Source: Pseudomonas graminis (lineage in GTDB: Bacteria > Pseudomonadota > Gammaproteobacteria > Pseudomonadales > Pseudomonadaceae). From it: a stretch of DNA of 64,000 nucleotides. Below the pieces are notes generated by a model. The model did not search any database and was not told where the DNA came from. It saw nothing but the letters and a program-made list of their open reading frames with translations. Positions 4,515 through 48,751 of the stretch are shown here, piece by piece. The stretch covers positions 558,001-622,000 of the forward strand of contig NZ_MDEN01000069.1 of assembly GCF_001705435.1 (NCBI RefSeq), read 5' to 3'. Every line of letters starts with the position of its first letter. Position 1 is the first letter of the stretch. The translations under genes were made by a program, and so were the position numbers.

Positions 4515-4604
4515 CTTCCCGGCTAAAGCCGGTCCTACATGGGACGACATCGGTCCCACGGACTGCACGCGCTGCTTTTCGTAGGACCGGCTTCAGCCGG
4601 GAAG
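4515..4604. repeat. REP pair (REPIN), locus 1
   Basis: Two inverted 24-bp REP copies at 4515-4538 (forward, core GGCTAAAGCC) and 4581-4604 (reverse, core GGCTTCAGCC), separated by 42 bp. The arms could fold into one long hairpin. It lies directly upstream of long-repeat copy 1. Open frames across it are not coding. Confidence 0.85.
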
Positions 4605-4666: not shown

Positions 4667-4901
4667 ACGCGACTTGGGTGCAGGCTGAACGCAGACGACG
4701 CGGAGTGGGCCGAGCGGCATGGATGCCGCGAGAGCGCCGTCAGGACATGGATGTCCGTTCGGCGCGGGCCCACGGAGCGAGACCGGAGTGAGGGTACTCC
4801 GACGAAGGAGGAGCCCAACCAGGAGCACAAGCCCTTGGTTACTTGGGGTGCTTTTCCAAGTAACTCGCCGAAGGCGAAACGATCTGCCGTTAGGCAGAGC
4901 T
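4667..4901 (+). repeat. Long structured intergenic repeat, copy 1
   Basis: About 235 bp, also found at 19711-19942 and, inverted, at 36765-37011. Shared landmarks are TGGTGCAGGCTGAACG-like sequence at the left end, GAGAGCGCCGTCAGGACA, GTCCGTTCGGCGCGGGCC, GGACCGGAGTG-like sequence, and CCAAGTAACTCGCCGAAGGC near the right end. Nested inverted repeats include GTGGGCC (4705-4711) with GGCCCAC (4767-4773), GCGGCAT/ATGCCGC (4714-4729), GCGCCG/CGGCGC (4734-4765) enclosing GGACAT/ATGTCC, and a terminal CTGCC/GGCAG hairpin followed by TTTTT. Small open frames here encode only repeat-derived peptides and are not treated as genes. Nothing else is seen in the gap up to 5014. Confidence 0.85.
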
Positions 4902-19455: not shown

Positions 19456-19599
19456 CGGCGCGAAAACTGGCATCGCTGTTTGGGCGACAACAGAGCTAAC
19501 GCAGAGCGTCAAGGGATGCATTAACGATCATCAACAGGTCGAGCGGGGGGCGATCAGGCAGGTTTTAACATTCAAAATTGATGGCGCAACCACAGGCCT

Positions 19600-19666
19600 C
19601 TTCCCGGCTAAAGCCGGTCCTACAAAGGCACCGCGTACCCCTGTAGGACCGGCTTTAGCCGGGAAG
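19600..19666. repeat. REP pair (REPIN), locus 2
   Basis: Inverted REP copies at 19600-19623 (forward, GGCTAAAGCC) and 19643-19666 (reverse, GGCTTTAGCC) with a 19-bp spacer. The arms are perfectly complementary over their cores. Directly upstream of long-repeat copy 2. The gap 19456-19599 before it holds no gene that I can see. Confidence 0.9.
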
Positions 19667-19710
19667 CTTTTGATCTTGATCTTCGGACGCGATTGACCAG
19701 ACACCACAAA

Positions 19711-19942
19711 ACGCGACTTTGGTGCAGGCTGAACGCAGGTTTCGCGCAGTGGGCCGAGCCGCATGGATGCGGCGAGAGCGCCGTCAGGACAGGGATGTCC
19801 GTTCGGCGCGGGCCCTCGGAGCGGGACCGGAGTGAAGGAACCCGACGAAGTCGGGCCCAACCGAGAGCAAGCCCCCTTGGTTACTTGGGGGGCTTTTTCC
19901 AAGTAACTCGCCGAAGGCGAAACGTCTGCCCTTAGGCAGACG
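19711..19942 (+). repeat. Long structured intergenic repeat, copy 2
   Basis: About 232 bp, homologous to 4667-4901 and to the inverse of 36765-37011. It has the same nested palindromes, with GCCGCAT/ATGCGGC where copy 1 has GCGGCAT/ATGCCGC, and a CCCGA/TCGGG hairpin where copy 1 has CTCC/GGAG. The terminal hairpin is GTCTGCC/GGCAGAC. It lies between the convergent ends of the LysR gene and livF, where it may also help stop transcription. Confidence 0.85.
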
Positions 19943-27239: not shown

Positions 27240-27294
27240 AAAAGGGGACAGATTTATTTACGGTGAAGCGCTGTAAATAAATCAGTCCCCTTTT
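27240..27294. repeat. 55-bp palindromic repeat, copy A (probable terminator)
   Basis: Arms of 22 bp: AAAAGGGGAC-A-GATTTATTTAC and GTAAATAAATC-A-GTCCCCTTTT, with one A-A mismatch and an 11-base loop. It recurs inverted at 48705-48751. Such GGGGACAGATTTATTT palindromes are widely dispersed in gammaproteobacteria and are often found near REP-associated transposases. Here it sits between the convergent ends of the MFS gene and rapA and could stop both transcripts. Confidence 0.8.
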
Positions 27295-30942: not shown

Positions 30943-31074
30943 CCACGCCTCCCGTTCGGCCCCCGCCTGCCGTCTGCTGTTTGCGATTCACGCCGGCATT
31001 GACCTGAGTCAATTTCTCCCGCTACCCCTCTGGTTACTCTGCGCCTGTCAAAGGCTGAAGCAGAGGGCACGCGC

Positions 31075-31191
31075 ATGTTTCTCGACCACGCAGTGATAGC
31101 CGGCGTCATGGCGGTGGGGCTGATGATGGTGATTTATTCAAGCGTCGGACTGTTCATCTGGAAAGACTCACCCCCGCGCGGCAGACGCTGA
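31075..31191 (+). CDS. 38-residue single-pass membrane protein
   Basis: ATG at 31075 with AGAGGG upstream. The product starts MFLDHAVIAGVMAVGLMMV and continues IYSSVGLFIWKDSPPRGRR. One membrane helix covers about residues 6-29 and the short C-terminus is positive, so it would face the cytoplasm. The sequence resembles small conserved pseudomonad membrane proteins of the MFLDxxVIAGV type; this is from memory. A strong terminator at 31223-31250 sits 31 bp after the stop and supports it as a real gene. Confidence 0.6.
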   Translation: MFLDHAVIAGVMAVGLMMVIYSSVGLFIWKDSPPRGRR

Positions 31192-31222
31192 GTTTTCTAT
31201 ACAAAGAGCACGCAAGGCATTT

Positions 31223-31250
31223 TGGGCAACTTCGGTTGCCCATTTTTTTT
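31223..31250 (+). terminator. Strong Rho-independent terminator with UUCG loop
   Basis: TGGGCAAC (31223-31230), loop TTCG, GTTGCCCA (31235-31242), then eight T. It closes the small-gene cluster on the plus strand and faces the end of phaJ. Confidence 0.92.
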
Positions 31251-32984: not shown

Positions 32985-34673
<1,689 letters not shown>

Positions 34674-35030: not shown

Positions 35031-36728
35031 ATGCTCGAAAACTTCTGGAAGGATAAATATCCGACAGGTATCGCTGCCGATATCGATCCGGATCAGTATC
35101 CGAACGTACAGGCCGTATTGAAACAGTCCTGCGAGCGTTTCGCCAACAAACCTGCGTTCAGCAACCTGGGCAAGACCCTCACCTACGGCGAAATGTACGC
35201 GCTGTCCGGTGCCTTTGCGGCGTATCTGCAACAGCACACCGACCTGCAACCGGGCGATCGCATCGCCGTGCAGTTGCCCAACGTGCTGCAGTACCCGGTC
35301 GCGGTGTTCGGTGCCATTCGTGCCGGGCTCATCGTGGTCAACACCAACCCGCTGTACACCGCGCGGGAAATGGAACACCAATTCAACGACTCCGGCGCCA
35401 AGGCGCTGGTTTGCCTGGCGAACATGGCGCACCTGGCCGAGAAGGTCGTGCCCAAGACCGGCGTCAAGCACATCATCGTCACCGAAGTCGCCGACCTGCT
35501 GCCGCCCCTCAAGCGCCTGCTGGTCAACAGCGTCATCAAGTACGTGAAGAAGATGGTCCCGCCGTTTCACCTGCCCAAGGCGGTCAAATTCAACGCCGTG
35601 CTGGCCAAGGGGCACGGTCAGCCGGTGCGGGATGTTTCGCCGACCGGCGACGACGTCGCGGTGCTGCAATACACCGGCGGCACCACCGGCGTGGCCAAGG
35701 GCGCGATGCTCACCCACCGCAACCTGATCGCCAACATGCTGCAATGCCGGGCGCTGATGGCGGCCAACCTCAATGAAGGCACGGAGATTCTGATCACGCC
35801 GTTGCCGCTGTACCACATCTATGCGTTCACCTTTCACTGCATGGCGATGATGCTGAGCGGCAACCACAACGTGCTGATCAGCAACCCCCGTGATTTGTCG
35901 GCGATGGTGAAAGAGCTGTCGAAGTGGAAGTTTTCCGGCTTCGTCGGGCTCAACACGCTGTTCGTCGCGCTGTGCAATAACGCCGACTTCCGCCACCTGG
36001 ATTTCTCCTCGCTCAAGCTCACCCTGTCGGGCGGCATGGCTTTGCAAACCGCGGCGGCCGAGCGCTGGAAAGAGGTGACCGGCTGCTCGATCTGCGAAGG
36101 GTACGGCATGACCGAGACCAGCCCGGTGGCGTCGGTCAACCCGTTCCAGAAGATCCAGATGGGCACCATCGGCATTCCCGTGCCTTCGACCCTGTGCAAG
36201 ACCATTAATGACGCTGGCGAAGAGCTGCCGGTCGGCGAAGTGGGCGAGCTGTGCATCAAGGGGCCGCAGGTGATGAAAGGCTACTGGCAAAATCAGGCCG
36301 CCACCGACGAGATGCTCGATGCGGACGGTTGGTTGAAGACCGGTGACATCGCAATCATCCAGCCGGATGGCTACATGCGCATCGTTGATCGCAAGAAGGA
36401 CATGATTCTGGTCTCCGGTTTCAACGTGTACCCGAACGAACTGGAAGATGTGCTGGCGACCCTGCCCGGCGTCCTGCAGTGCGCGGCCATCGGTATCCCG
36501 GACGAAAAATCCGGCGAGGCGATCAAGCTGTTCGTGGTGTGCAAACCGGGCACGACCCTGAGCAAGGATCAAGTCATGCAGCACATGCGCGCCAACGTCA
36601 CGGCTTATAAAGTGCCGCGTAGCGTGGAATTCCGCGACGCCCTGCCGACCACCAACGTCGGCAAGATCCTGCGCCGCGAACTGCGTGACGAAGAACTGAA
36701 AAAGCTGGCGCTTAAGAAGCCGGCCTGA
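35031..36728 (+). CDS. fadD1: Long-chain fatty acid-CoA ligase FadD1
   Basis: 565 residues from the ATG at 35031 (GAGGAG upstream), starting MLENFWKDKYPTGIAADI; the frame extends upstream but is not supported. Same reaction and layout as FadD2: P-loop YTGGTTGVAKGAML, LPLYHIYAFTFHCMAMM, EGYGMTETSPVASVNPF, LKTGDIAIIQPDGYMRIVDRKKDMILVSGFNVYPNELED, NVGKILRRELRDEELKKL. It is the housekeeping long-chain ligase in pseudomonads; FadD2 is usually specialised for shorter or alternative chains. Tandem duplication is ancient, since the two differ throughout. The 3' gap holds repeat locus 3. Confidence 0.95.
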   Translation: MLENFWKDKYPTGIAADIDPDQYPNVQAVLKQSCERFANKPAFSNLGKTLTYGEMYALSGAFAAYLQQHTDLQPGDRIAVQLPNVLQYPVAVFGAIRAGLIVVNTNPLYTAREMEHQFNDSGAKALVCLANMAHLAEKVVPKTGVKHIIVTEVADLLPPLKRLLVNSVIKYVKKMVPPFHLPKAVKFNAVLAKGHGQPVRDVSPTGDDVAVLQYTGGTTGVAKGAMLTHRNLIANMLQCRALMAANLNEGTEILITPLPLYHIYAFTFHCMAMMLSGNHNVLISNPRDLSAMVKELSKWKFSGFVGLNTLFVALCNNADFRHLDFSSLKLTLSGGMALQTAAAERWKEVTGCSICEGYGMTETSPVASVNPFQKIQMGTIGIPVPSTLCKTINDAGEELPVGEVGELCIKGPQVMKGYWQNQAATDEMLDADGWLKTGDIAIIQPDGYMRIVDRKKDMILVSGFNVYPNELEDVLATLPGVLQCAAIGIPDEKSGEAIKLFVVCKPGTTLSKDQVMQHMRANVTAYKVPRSVEFRDALPTTNVGKILRRELRDEELKKLALKKPA

Positions 36729-36764: not shown

Positions 36765-37011
36765 CGGCCTAACGGCCTCGGGTTTCGCCTTCGGCGAGTT
36801 ACTTGGAAAAGCACCCCCCTCTCGGTTTTAAAGAGCAGCCAAGGGTGCTTGCTCTCGGTTGGGCCCCTCGTTCCTCGGGGTTCCTTCACTCCGGTCCCGC
36901 TCCGTGGGCCCGCGCCGAACGGACATCCATGTCCTGACGGCGCTCTCGCCGCATCCATGCGGCTCGGCCCACTCCGCGAGACCTACGTTCAGCCTGCACC
37001 AAGGTCGCGAT
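36765..37011 (-). repeat. Long structured intergenic repeat, copy 3 (inverted)
   Basis: About 247 bp, the inverse of copies at 4667-4901 and 19711-19942. Read on the minus strand it has GTGGGCC/GGCCCAC, GCCGCAT/ATGCGGC, GCGCCG/CGGCGC around GGACAT/ATGTCC, a CCCC/GGGG hairpin where the others have CTCC/GGAG or CCCGA/TCGGG, and a terminal GGCC/GGCC hairpin. Its right half (36825-36845) is diverged where the others carry GTTACTTGG. It fills most of the fadD1-hrpA gap. Confidence 0.85.
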
Positions 37012-37060: not shown

Positions 37061-37201
37061 CTTCCCGGCTAAAGCCGGTCCCACAGACCTACTGCGCATC
37101 CACTGTAGGACTGGCTTTAGCCGGGAAGAGGCCGGTGTGATCGCCACGTATTTCACTGAATGCACGCGCTGCTCTTAGTGGGACTGGCTTTAGCCGGGAA
37201 G
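37061..37201. repeat. Three REP copies, locus 3
   Basis: REP copies at 37061-37084 (forward), 37105-37128 (reverse) and 37178-37201 (reverse), cores GGCTAAAGCC or GGCTTTAGCC. The first two form a REPIN with a 20-bp spacer beside long-repeat copy 3; the third is an extra single REP. Nothing else is recognised in 37202-37411. Confidence 0.85.
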
Positions 37202-37411
37202 AGGCCCGCATGACCGCCATTAATTTTTTGGCATAAACCCTCCATGTGGGAGCCGTCACGACCTCGTGGGAGCGATCGGGGTGGCGCTCCACATTGCGCG
37301 CGAGGACTTACACCCTGCCCGTGAATGCCTTTGCGCCACAGACCTGCCTCCACCCCACCAAATCTGCGACAATCCGCGCCCTGCATTCAGATAGAAAGAT
37401 TCCGCGCCCTG

Positions 37412-48643: not shown

Positions 48644-48704
48644 AGGCCAGTGTGAACACCCTCAAATTTGCGGTGTGACCCCCGATGCATTCCCCATGGA
48701 CTGA

Positions 48705-48751
48705 GGGGACTGATTTATTTACAGCGCTTCACCGTAAATTAATCTGTCCCC
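48705..48751. repeat. 47-bp palindromic repeat, copy B
   Basis: The inverse of copy A at 27240-27294: arms GGGGACTGATTTATTTAC and GTAAATTAATCTGTCCCC, with one mismatch in the right arm relative to copy A. It lies 15 bp downstream of the LysR stop, as a possible terminator for that gene. Confidence 0.85.

Follow-up and report, generated by a model that had tools for sequence, protein, structure and literature searches.

The 64,000-nucleotide stretch of Pseudomonas graminis DNA analysed here (the window) contains three copies of a dispersed, TwoAYGGAY-type repeat, here referred to as the element. All three were found where the original prediction had placed them: copy 1 at 4667–4901 and copy 2 at 19711–19942 on the plus strand, and copy 3 at 36765–37011 on the minus strand. 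R1, a covariance model built from 51 copies, matched them with 175.9, 189.9 and 188.0 bits, respectively, over model cores at 4690–4856, 19734–19898 and 36806–36987. An inverted pair of palindromes (19592–19674, unstranded) lies upstream of copy 2, and related palindromes are found at ≈4515–4555, upstream of copy 1, and at 37061–37241, upstream of copy 3. We take these to be of the REP type, a name in use for Pseudomonas repeats (see also PMC2718517).

At the gathering level, Rfam detected only the PhrS sRNA in the whole window (31047–31250, plus strand, 126.7 bits, full length), and no TwoAYGGAY. The window also contains a 48-nt inverted repeat (GGGGACAGATTTATTTACGG...) at 27244–27291 and 48704–48751, and a similar sequence occurs just downstream of several element copies. 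Direct repeats of 79–85% identity, at 33168–33868 and 35214–35893 in two adjoining plus-strand ORFs, suggest a tandem gene duplication.

Layout of the element

Copy 2 is structurally intact. Its outermost stem, P0 (arms 19738–19745 and 19821–19828), is followed inwards by P1 (19749–19755 with 19811–19817), which encloses a first hairpin, H1 (19758–19773), with an AUGGAU loop, and a further stem, P2 (19778–19783 with 19804–19809). P2 in turn encloses a second hairpin, H2 (19787–19800; GGACAGGGAUGUCC), with an AGGGAU loop. H1 and H2 represent candidate RsmA/CsrA sites 1 and 2. This multibranched part is followed by H3 (19841–19855), a covarying stem with a variable loop, by an intrinsic-terminator-like hairpin with a T-run (19871–19898), reported by a strict terminator scan, and by a hairpin at the 3' edge (GTCTGCC/GGCAGAC, 19924–19941). 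In copy 1, H1 (4714–4729) and H2 (4743–4756) both have AUGGAU loops, as do H1 (36963–36948) and H2 (36934–36921) of copy 3 on the minus strand.

Several of these pairings had been described in the original prediction and are indeed present, including the exchange of GCGGCAT/ATGCCGC in copy 1 for GCCGCAT/ATGCGGC in copies 2 and 3, a second hairpin that reads CTCC/GGAG, CCCGA/TCGGG and CCCC/GGGG in copies 1–3, and an outer GTGGGCC/GGCCCAC stem, which is P1. The last hairpin (CTGCC/GGCAG and its counterparts) does alter on both arms among copies, as judged by inspection, and lies outside the models. The GCGCCG/CGGCGC stem exists as well, but rather than enclosing both of the first hairpins, as had been proposed, it surrounds only the second. 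The description of the whole as cloverleaf-like is a loose one: there is a multibranch stem, in which P0–P1 surround H1 and P2–H2, but the 3' hairpins lie outside it. The prediction made no mention of P0, GGTCTCGC/GCGAGACC, which is block-swapped to GACGACGC/GCGTCGTC in other copies, or of the most informative feature of the element, the A-N-GGA-U loop on both main hairpins.

In copy 1, GACGACGC stands opposite GCGAGACC, so that P0 is mismatched. The two arms of P0, like those of the chimeric terminator stem, match different sub-types and have lost their pairing. Copy 1 (4690–4856) thus looks like a recombinant of two element sub-types.

Conservation of the fold

Three alignments were used to evaluate the pairing. 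A1 consists of 51 copies from the genome to which the window belongs (six partial copies among 57 places found by BLAST were dropped), aligned with MAFFT and not fitted to the structure. A3 (45 rows, genus-wide) and A5 (128 rows, the majority taken from named Pseudomonas) were aligned to the model and are therefore biased towards its structure, a bias from which A1 is free. RNAalifold, unaided, recovered the same main helices from A1, namely P0, P1, H1, P2, H2, H3 and the terminator-like hairpin; P0, P1, P2 and H3 were likewise present as helices in A3 and A5.

Standard pairs made up 98.5% of the 2122 paired-column cells in A1, compared to 88.7% in shuffled alignments, none of 500 of which reached the observed value, and to 36–45% in slid controls. 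There were 181 double-sided cells, against 45.5 in shuffles, and 18 of the 42 pairs changed on both sides in some copy. The number of further pair types (34, against 32.8 in shuffles, with 167 of 500 reaching it) was the sole one of five measures without an excess in A1; the same measure exceeded the shuffles in A3 (2 of 500 reaching it) and in A5 (0 of 500). Pairing was retained in 96.4% of cells in A3 and 94.0% in A5, where 28 and 36 of the 42 pairs, respectively, were altered on both sides. The least conserved helix in A5 was that of the terminator, with 76.8% of cells paired, compared to 98–99% in H1, P2 and H2. The fold z-scores were −3.33 for copy 2 and −4.22 for copy 1. It is thus the structure, and not just the sequence, that is conserved among the copies, as had been claimed.

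The original prediction had named covariation above the phylogenetic background as its own test. For this purpose, a FastTree tree was calculated for 118 of the 128 rows of A5 (the 10 lowest-scoring rows were left out), and substitutions reconstructed by parsimony were redistributed along its branches to give 40 null alignments. Column pairs were scored by G-test covariation with average-product correction, using our own script modelled on R-scape rather than R-scape itself. Against this null, 11 of the 42 structure pairs were significant at E < 0.05 when each of the 13,861 column pairs was counted as a test, and 18 of the 42 when the structure pairs alone were. Four further pairs outside the listed structure were also significant, all of which extend or adjoin its helices. 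Parsimony on the same tree yielded 201 double-sided changes from one pair to another, 118 one-sided changes and 168 changes to or from unpaired states, with at least two double-sided events in 27 of the 42 pairs. Because recombination between copies breaks the assumption of a tree, these values should be taken as support and not as exact estimates. They nevertheless lie above the phylogenetic background and support the reading that the structure is under selection.

The structure had been attributed to either an RNA or a DNA cruciform. Watson–Crick covariation by itself cannot separate the two, but the mismatches at paired columns are informative, since a cruciform selected at the DNA level would treat both strands equally. 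On the strand read in the original prediction, G·U outnumbered A·C by 37 to 8 in A1 (other mismatches, 23), by 90 to 5 in A3 (other, 63) and by 258 to 23 in A5 (other, 287). The excess shrinks to 13:4, 16:5 and 33:14, respectively, when repeated occurrences of a type at the same pair are counted as one. Because the mismatches are G·U rather than A·C, an RNA transcribed from that strand is favoured and the cruciform disfavoured, to the point that we consider the latter highly improbable. Judged from these alignments, the repeat is a real, strongly structured RNA.

Loop sequences and candidate RsmA/CsrA sites

While the stems covary, the loops stay constant. The H1 loop reads A-N-GGA-T in all 51 rows of A1 and in 44 of the 45 rows of A3, and the H2 loop does so in 50 of 51 rows of A1 (the remaining one being ATAGAT) and in all 45 rows of A3. 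The position N is variable, with all four bases represented. Among the copies of A1, the first loop reads ATGGAT in 43, AGGGAT in seven and ACGGAT in one, while loop 2 is ATGGAT in 47, AGGGAT in three and ATAGAT in one, so that the Y position of an AYGGAY loop is sometimes G. The H2 stem that surrounds the A-N-GGA-U loop occurs as GGAC..GUCC, GGGC..GCCC, CGCC..GGCG and GGCC..GGCC.

Both AnGGA hairpins were present in 70 of 73 copies. The number of GGA triplets per copy was 7.9 in this set, compared to 5.6 in shuffled sequences, and the number that were mostly unpaired in the minimum-energy fold was 5.0, compared to 2.5. The preferred CsrA site has been reported as RUACARGGAUGU in hairpin loops (PMC7937890), beside which the ACAGGGAUGU of copy 2 may be set. 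The A-N-GGA-U loops of H1 and H2 look like CsrA/RsmA sites in form, and are candidate docking sites for these proteins. The genome itself encodes four CsrA-family proteins and two rsmX RNAs.

Copy number and distribution

BLAST against the 66-contig assembly of the same genome found the element in at least 42 places (40 of 126 candidates were scored). With the R1 model, at least 93 matches at E ≤ 0.01 were obtained in this 5.96-Mb assembly, among 150 scored candidates; 73 of the 93 were full-length, above 160 bits, and several matches ran into contig ends. Across the genus, R1 matched 167 of 199 sampled Pseudomonas genomes at E ≤ 1e-4, with up to 14 candidates scored in each; some genomes were matched only weakly, and 46 of the 199 had at least 14 matches. 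A second model, R2, gave 85, 52 and 15 matches at E ≤ 1e-8, among 150 scored candidates each, in the single-contig assemblies G182, G160 and G010, respectively.

A pattern scan of named genomes identified at least 120 stretches. Among the 80 matches listed, 74 were from named Pseudomonas, and the others were from Nevskia (two), Stutzerimonas, Thalassolituus, a Pseudomonadaceae MAG and a Verrucomicrobia MAG. A search of phage records gave no match to the element, and a search of plasmid records gave only weak partial matches, to three records. In two other genomes, C4 antisense RNA and its a1/b1 targets were seen near element copies (L084, 2319–2515; L087, 1847–2045).

Arrangement and turnover

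Element copies that lie within ≈1 kb of each other are predominantly arranged head-to-head: 21 of 23 such pairs in the genome of the window (counted with the five weakest of the 93 matches left out), 22 of 23 in G182 (83 of 85 matches taken in) and 20 of 20 in G160; a tail-to-tail pair did not occur in any of the three. Among the loci from named genomes (L188–L267), 22 of 27 pairs were head-to-head, four were tail-to-tail and one was codirectional. The tail-to-tail cases (L204, L230 and L256) sit within alternating arrays.

Comparison with related genomes shows that individual copies come and go. By model search, copy 1 occupies the corresponding position in G182 and G020 and is missing from G152 and G068. 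For copy 2, the model gives a match in G182 and none in G152 or G068, and a BLAST match runs through it in G020 and G184. Both G182 and G184 carry copy 3, which is missing from G020, G152 and G068; G020 also lacks another copy (C65:668005). Copy 3 sits in the native terminator of the upstream plus-strand gene, as seen in relatives that have no copy; where the site is empty (G020, G152 and G068), the terminator of this neighbouring gene is intact. Sub-modules differ between orthologous copies, which suggests recombination between element copies.

These observations would fit a mobile or selfish repeat: a MITE-like, non-autonomous, REP-associated sequence that has spread and been homogenized through gene conversion, and in which the hairpins serve mobilization of the repeat instead of regulation in the host. 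The many copies, the filled and empty sites in related genomes, the differing sub-modules at one site, the mostly head-to-head arrangement of close neighbours and the REP-type palindromes upstream of the window copies are all consistent with such an origin. However, neither terminal inverted repeats nor a transposase could be established, and the comparison of filled and empty sites revealed no clean target duplication and no mobilizing enzyme. An outer stem formed by the 5' flank with the 3' flank was rejected, since the flanks of the same copy paired no better than permuted flanks (−29.76 compared to −29.66 kcal/mol, 106 copies). In addition, the preference for G·U over A·C and the constancy of the AnGGA loops on stems that vary point to an RNA bound at its GGA loops. 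Mobilization as the reason for the hairpins is rather unlikely in our estimation, although spread and RNA function are compatible with each other.

Gene context, the 3' end and transcription

Gene context was derived from our own codon-usage gene caller rather than from curated annotation. Where genes were called on both sides in the same loci, 19 of the 49 intergenic gaps with elements were convergent, compared to 8 of the 94 gaps without, whereas 7 of 49 and 30 of 94, respectively, were divergent. The downstream gene was on the opposite strand in 50 of 73 cases, and the upstream gene was codirectional with the element in 44 of 76.

A hairpin at the terminator position was more stable than −8 kcal/mol in 64 of 73 copies. 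Its T-run is short, with four T in 8 nt in 49 of the 73 and three or fewer in 14. The strict terminator scan, applied to the three window copies, reported the hairpin of the type seen at 19871–19898 in copy 2 only; in copy 1, the same scan reported the 3' edge hairpin (4883–4898) as terminator-like.

It could be argued that the element is a terminator or 3'-end module, which ends transcription or protects RNA ends between genes, with GGA loops that are either incidental or recruit RsmA only to the mRNAs next to them. The terminator-type hairpin in most copies, the enrichment of elements in convergent gaps and their scarcity in divergent ones, and the placement of copy 3 in a native terminator all fit this interpretation. 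On the other hand, H1 and H2 are the best conserved parts of the element and the terminator pairs the least (A5), the T-run is short in most copies, and a terminator has no need of a constant AnGGA loop. We consider it improbable that this is the main role of the element.

No excess of sigma-70-like promoters was found upstream of 73 copies (best score 3.03, compared to 3.35 in shuffled sequences), and a promoter scan around the three window copies found none. A promoter belonging to the element itself is not supported by these scans. A scan for the GacA box separated poorly, with three and four mismatches for the true rsmX genes and mostly four and five for the element copies. Because no promoter signal was found, transcription would probably occur as read-through from neighbouring genes. 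Since the upstream gene is codirectional in only 44 of 76 cases, many copies would be out of reach of upstream read-through.

Family identity

In copy 1, the TwoAYGGAY model (RF01731) of Rfam matches 4707–4771 with 37.5 bits, below its cut-off of 43, and covers model positions 45–113 of 168. For copy 2, the closest family in a permissive Rfam search was rsmX, at 27.9 bits compared to a cut-off of 56; TwoAYGGAY was not listed in this search, where the overlapping rsmX match, from the same clan (CL00106), was. A direct assignment of copy 2 to rsmX was dropped, because its score is far under the cut-off. A search of the genome with the rsmX model gave two matches only, both outside the repeat.

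Other copies match TwoAYGGAY better. Among the best seven candidates in the genome of the window, four TwoAYGGAY matches were listed, three of which pass the cut-off (45.6, 43.1 and 43.1 bits), and one copy in this genome matches model positions 1–168. Ten copies in five other loci were also scored: four, from three other genomes, are above the cut-off (55.0, 54.1, 51.9 and 43.4 bits), and six are under it (42.0 to 38.8 bits). Across the class, the Rfam model matched 24 of 369 sampled genomes, 16 of them over the cut-off, and several of the 24 had at least seven matches. By these model scores, the core of the element looks like a divergent TwoAYGGAY RNA, from the clan to which rsmX belongs.

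Proposed function

What the computations establish is the fold, the strand, the near-constant loops, the copy number, the distribution and the turnover of the element, and the presence of a terminator-like hairpin in most copies. The interpretation that, on these data, is probably correct, if only by a little, is that the element is a dispersed, non-coding, divergent TwoAYGGAY RNA that acts as an RsmA/CsrA decoy with a terminator-like end. In a transcribed copy, P0, P1 and P2 would expose a pair of short hairpins whose A-N-GGA-U loops have the form recognized by RsmA/CsrA dimers; several mostly unpaired GGA triplets would add to these, and the hairpin with its short T-run would then end the transcript. 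Each transcribed copy would thereby occupy RsmA-family protein, and the tens of copies per genome would together serve as a scattered decoy, in addition to the rsmX/Y/Z RNAs under GacA control. The element may also terminate transcription between convergent genes. Read-through of a head-to-head pair would join the sense sequence of one copy to the antisense sequence of its partner in a single RNA, and base pairing between the two could mask the sites.

Extended to much of Pseudomonas, the proposal would be that the element is a decoy repeat for RsmA/CsrA of variable copy number, with Rsm titration distributed in part over tens of intergenic loci and evolving by gain and loss. This generalization is tentative, and we would not yet put it on the side of the probable. 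Models of the Gac/Rsm switch usually take only a few decoy RNAs into account. Should RsmA-family proteins also be bound by tens of dispersed copies, Rsm capacity would vary by species with copy number, and pull-down data would hold reads that are easily lost as multi-mapping. A testable function is thereby offered for a repeat present in 167 of the 199 sampled Pseudomonas genomes, and the motif-based prediction of a link between TwoAYGGAY and CsrA becomes testable in genetically tractable strains.

A lead in this direction comes from a pull-down study in P. putida KT2440, which reports that RsmA, RsmE and RsmI bound intergenic RNAs adjoining copies of ISPpu8, as well as a "long palindromic region" downstream of PP_3547 (PMC7937890). 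Inverted pairs of the element are long palindromes, and one named P. putida strain (L230) has inverted copies. A corollary of the proposal is that the ISPpu8-related "long palindromic" RNAs of KT2440 may be inverted pairs of the element, which we offer as a lead and not as evidence. To represent ISPpu8, transposase loci of the IS4 family were taken from other genomes. None of 25 such loci, of 30 found, held the element, and in further IS4 stretches it was held by one of 20 (six IS places are common to both sets); IS4 transposons in these genomes are not, as a rule, neighbours of the element. This single IS4-associated element (L376, 290–459) lies ≈2.2 kb from the match to the transposase N-domain. 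In G665, seven IS copies sit in ordinary terminators; these are near-identical IS4-family copies of ≈1.42 kb (L364–L370) within intrinsic terminators, with flanking duplications of 11–13 bp in six of the seven.

Comparison with known RNAs and repeats

TwoAYGGAY was described by Weinberg et al., who list it in a table as probably an RNA and probably not cis-regulatory (PMC2864571), unlike Rfam, where its type is given as cis-regulatory. It was later proposed to be a CsrA-binding sRNA by a motif match, without experiment (PMC4333381). The element resembles this family in that a single stem encloses a pair of hairpins with AYGGAY-type loops, and in its covarying secondary structure. The Rfam model has a further external stem (PMC4333381), to which P0 of the element may correspond. 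The Pseudomonas element differs in the addition of H3, the terminator-like hairpin and the 3' hairpin, and in its occurrence in tens of copies, mostly as head-to-head pairs; the accessible parts of the published accounts of the family contain no mention of a high copy number.

With RsmX, RsmY, RsmZ and CsrB, the element shares multiple GGA sites, located in hairpin loops as well as in single-stranded stretches, and a 3' end of the terminator type. It differs from rsmX, which has two gene copies here, in being dispersed, in scoring below the rsmX cut-off and in the lack of a recognizable promoter. Titles and abstract openings in the open-access literature searched describe no multicopy Rsm/Csr decoy repeat as such.

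In its intergenic location and high copy number, the element is similar to REP sequences and to the R0–R200 families of intergenic repeats reported in P. fluorescens, in which R200 is 320 bp long and has 47 copies in SBW25, and in which the genes that flank the larger families are biased to a tail-to-tail orientation (PMC2718517). By its size and number, R200 could be a relative of the element. What seems to be novel is the scale and layout of the TwoAYGGAY-type element in Pseudomonas, the family and its predicted link to CsrA being already known.
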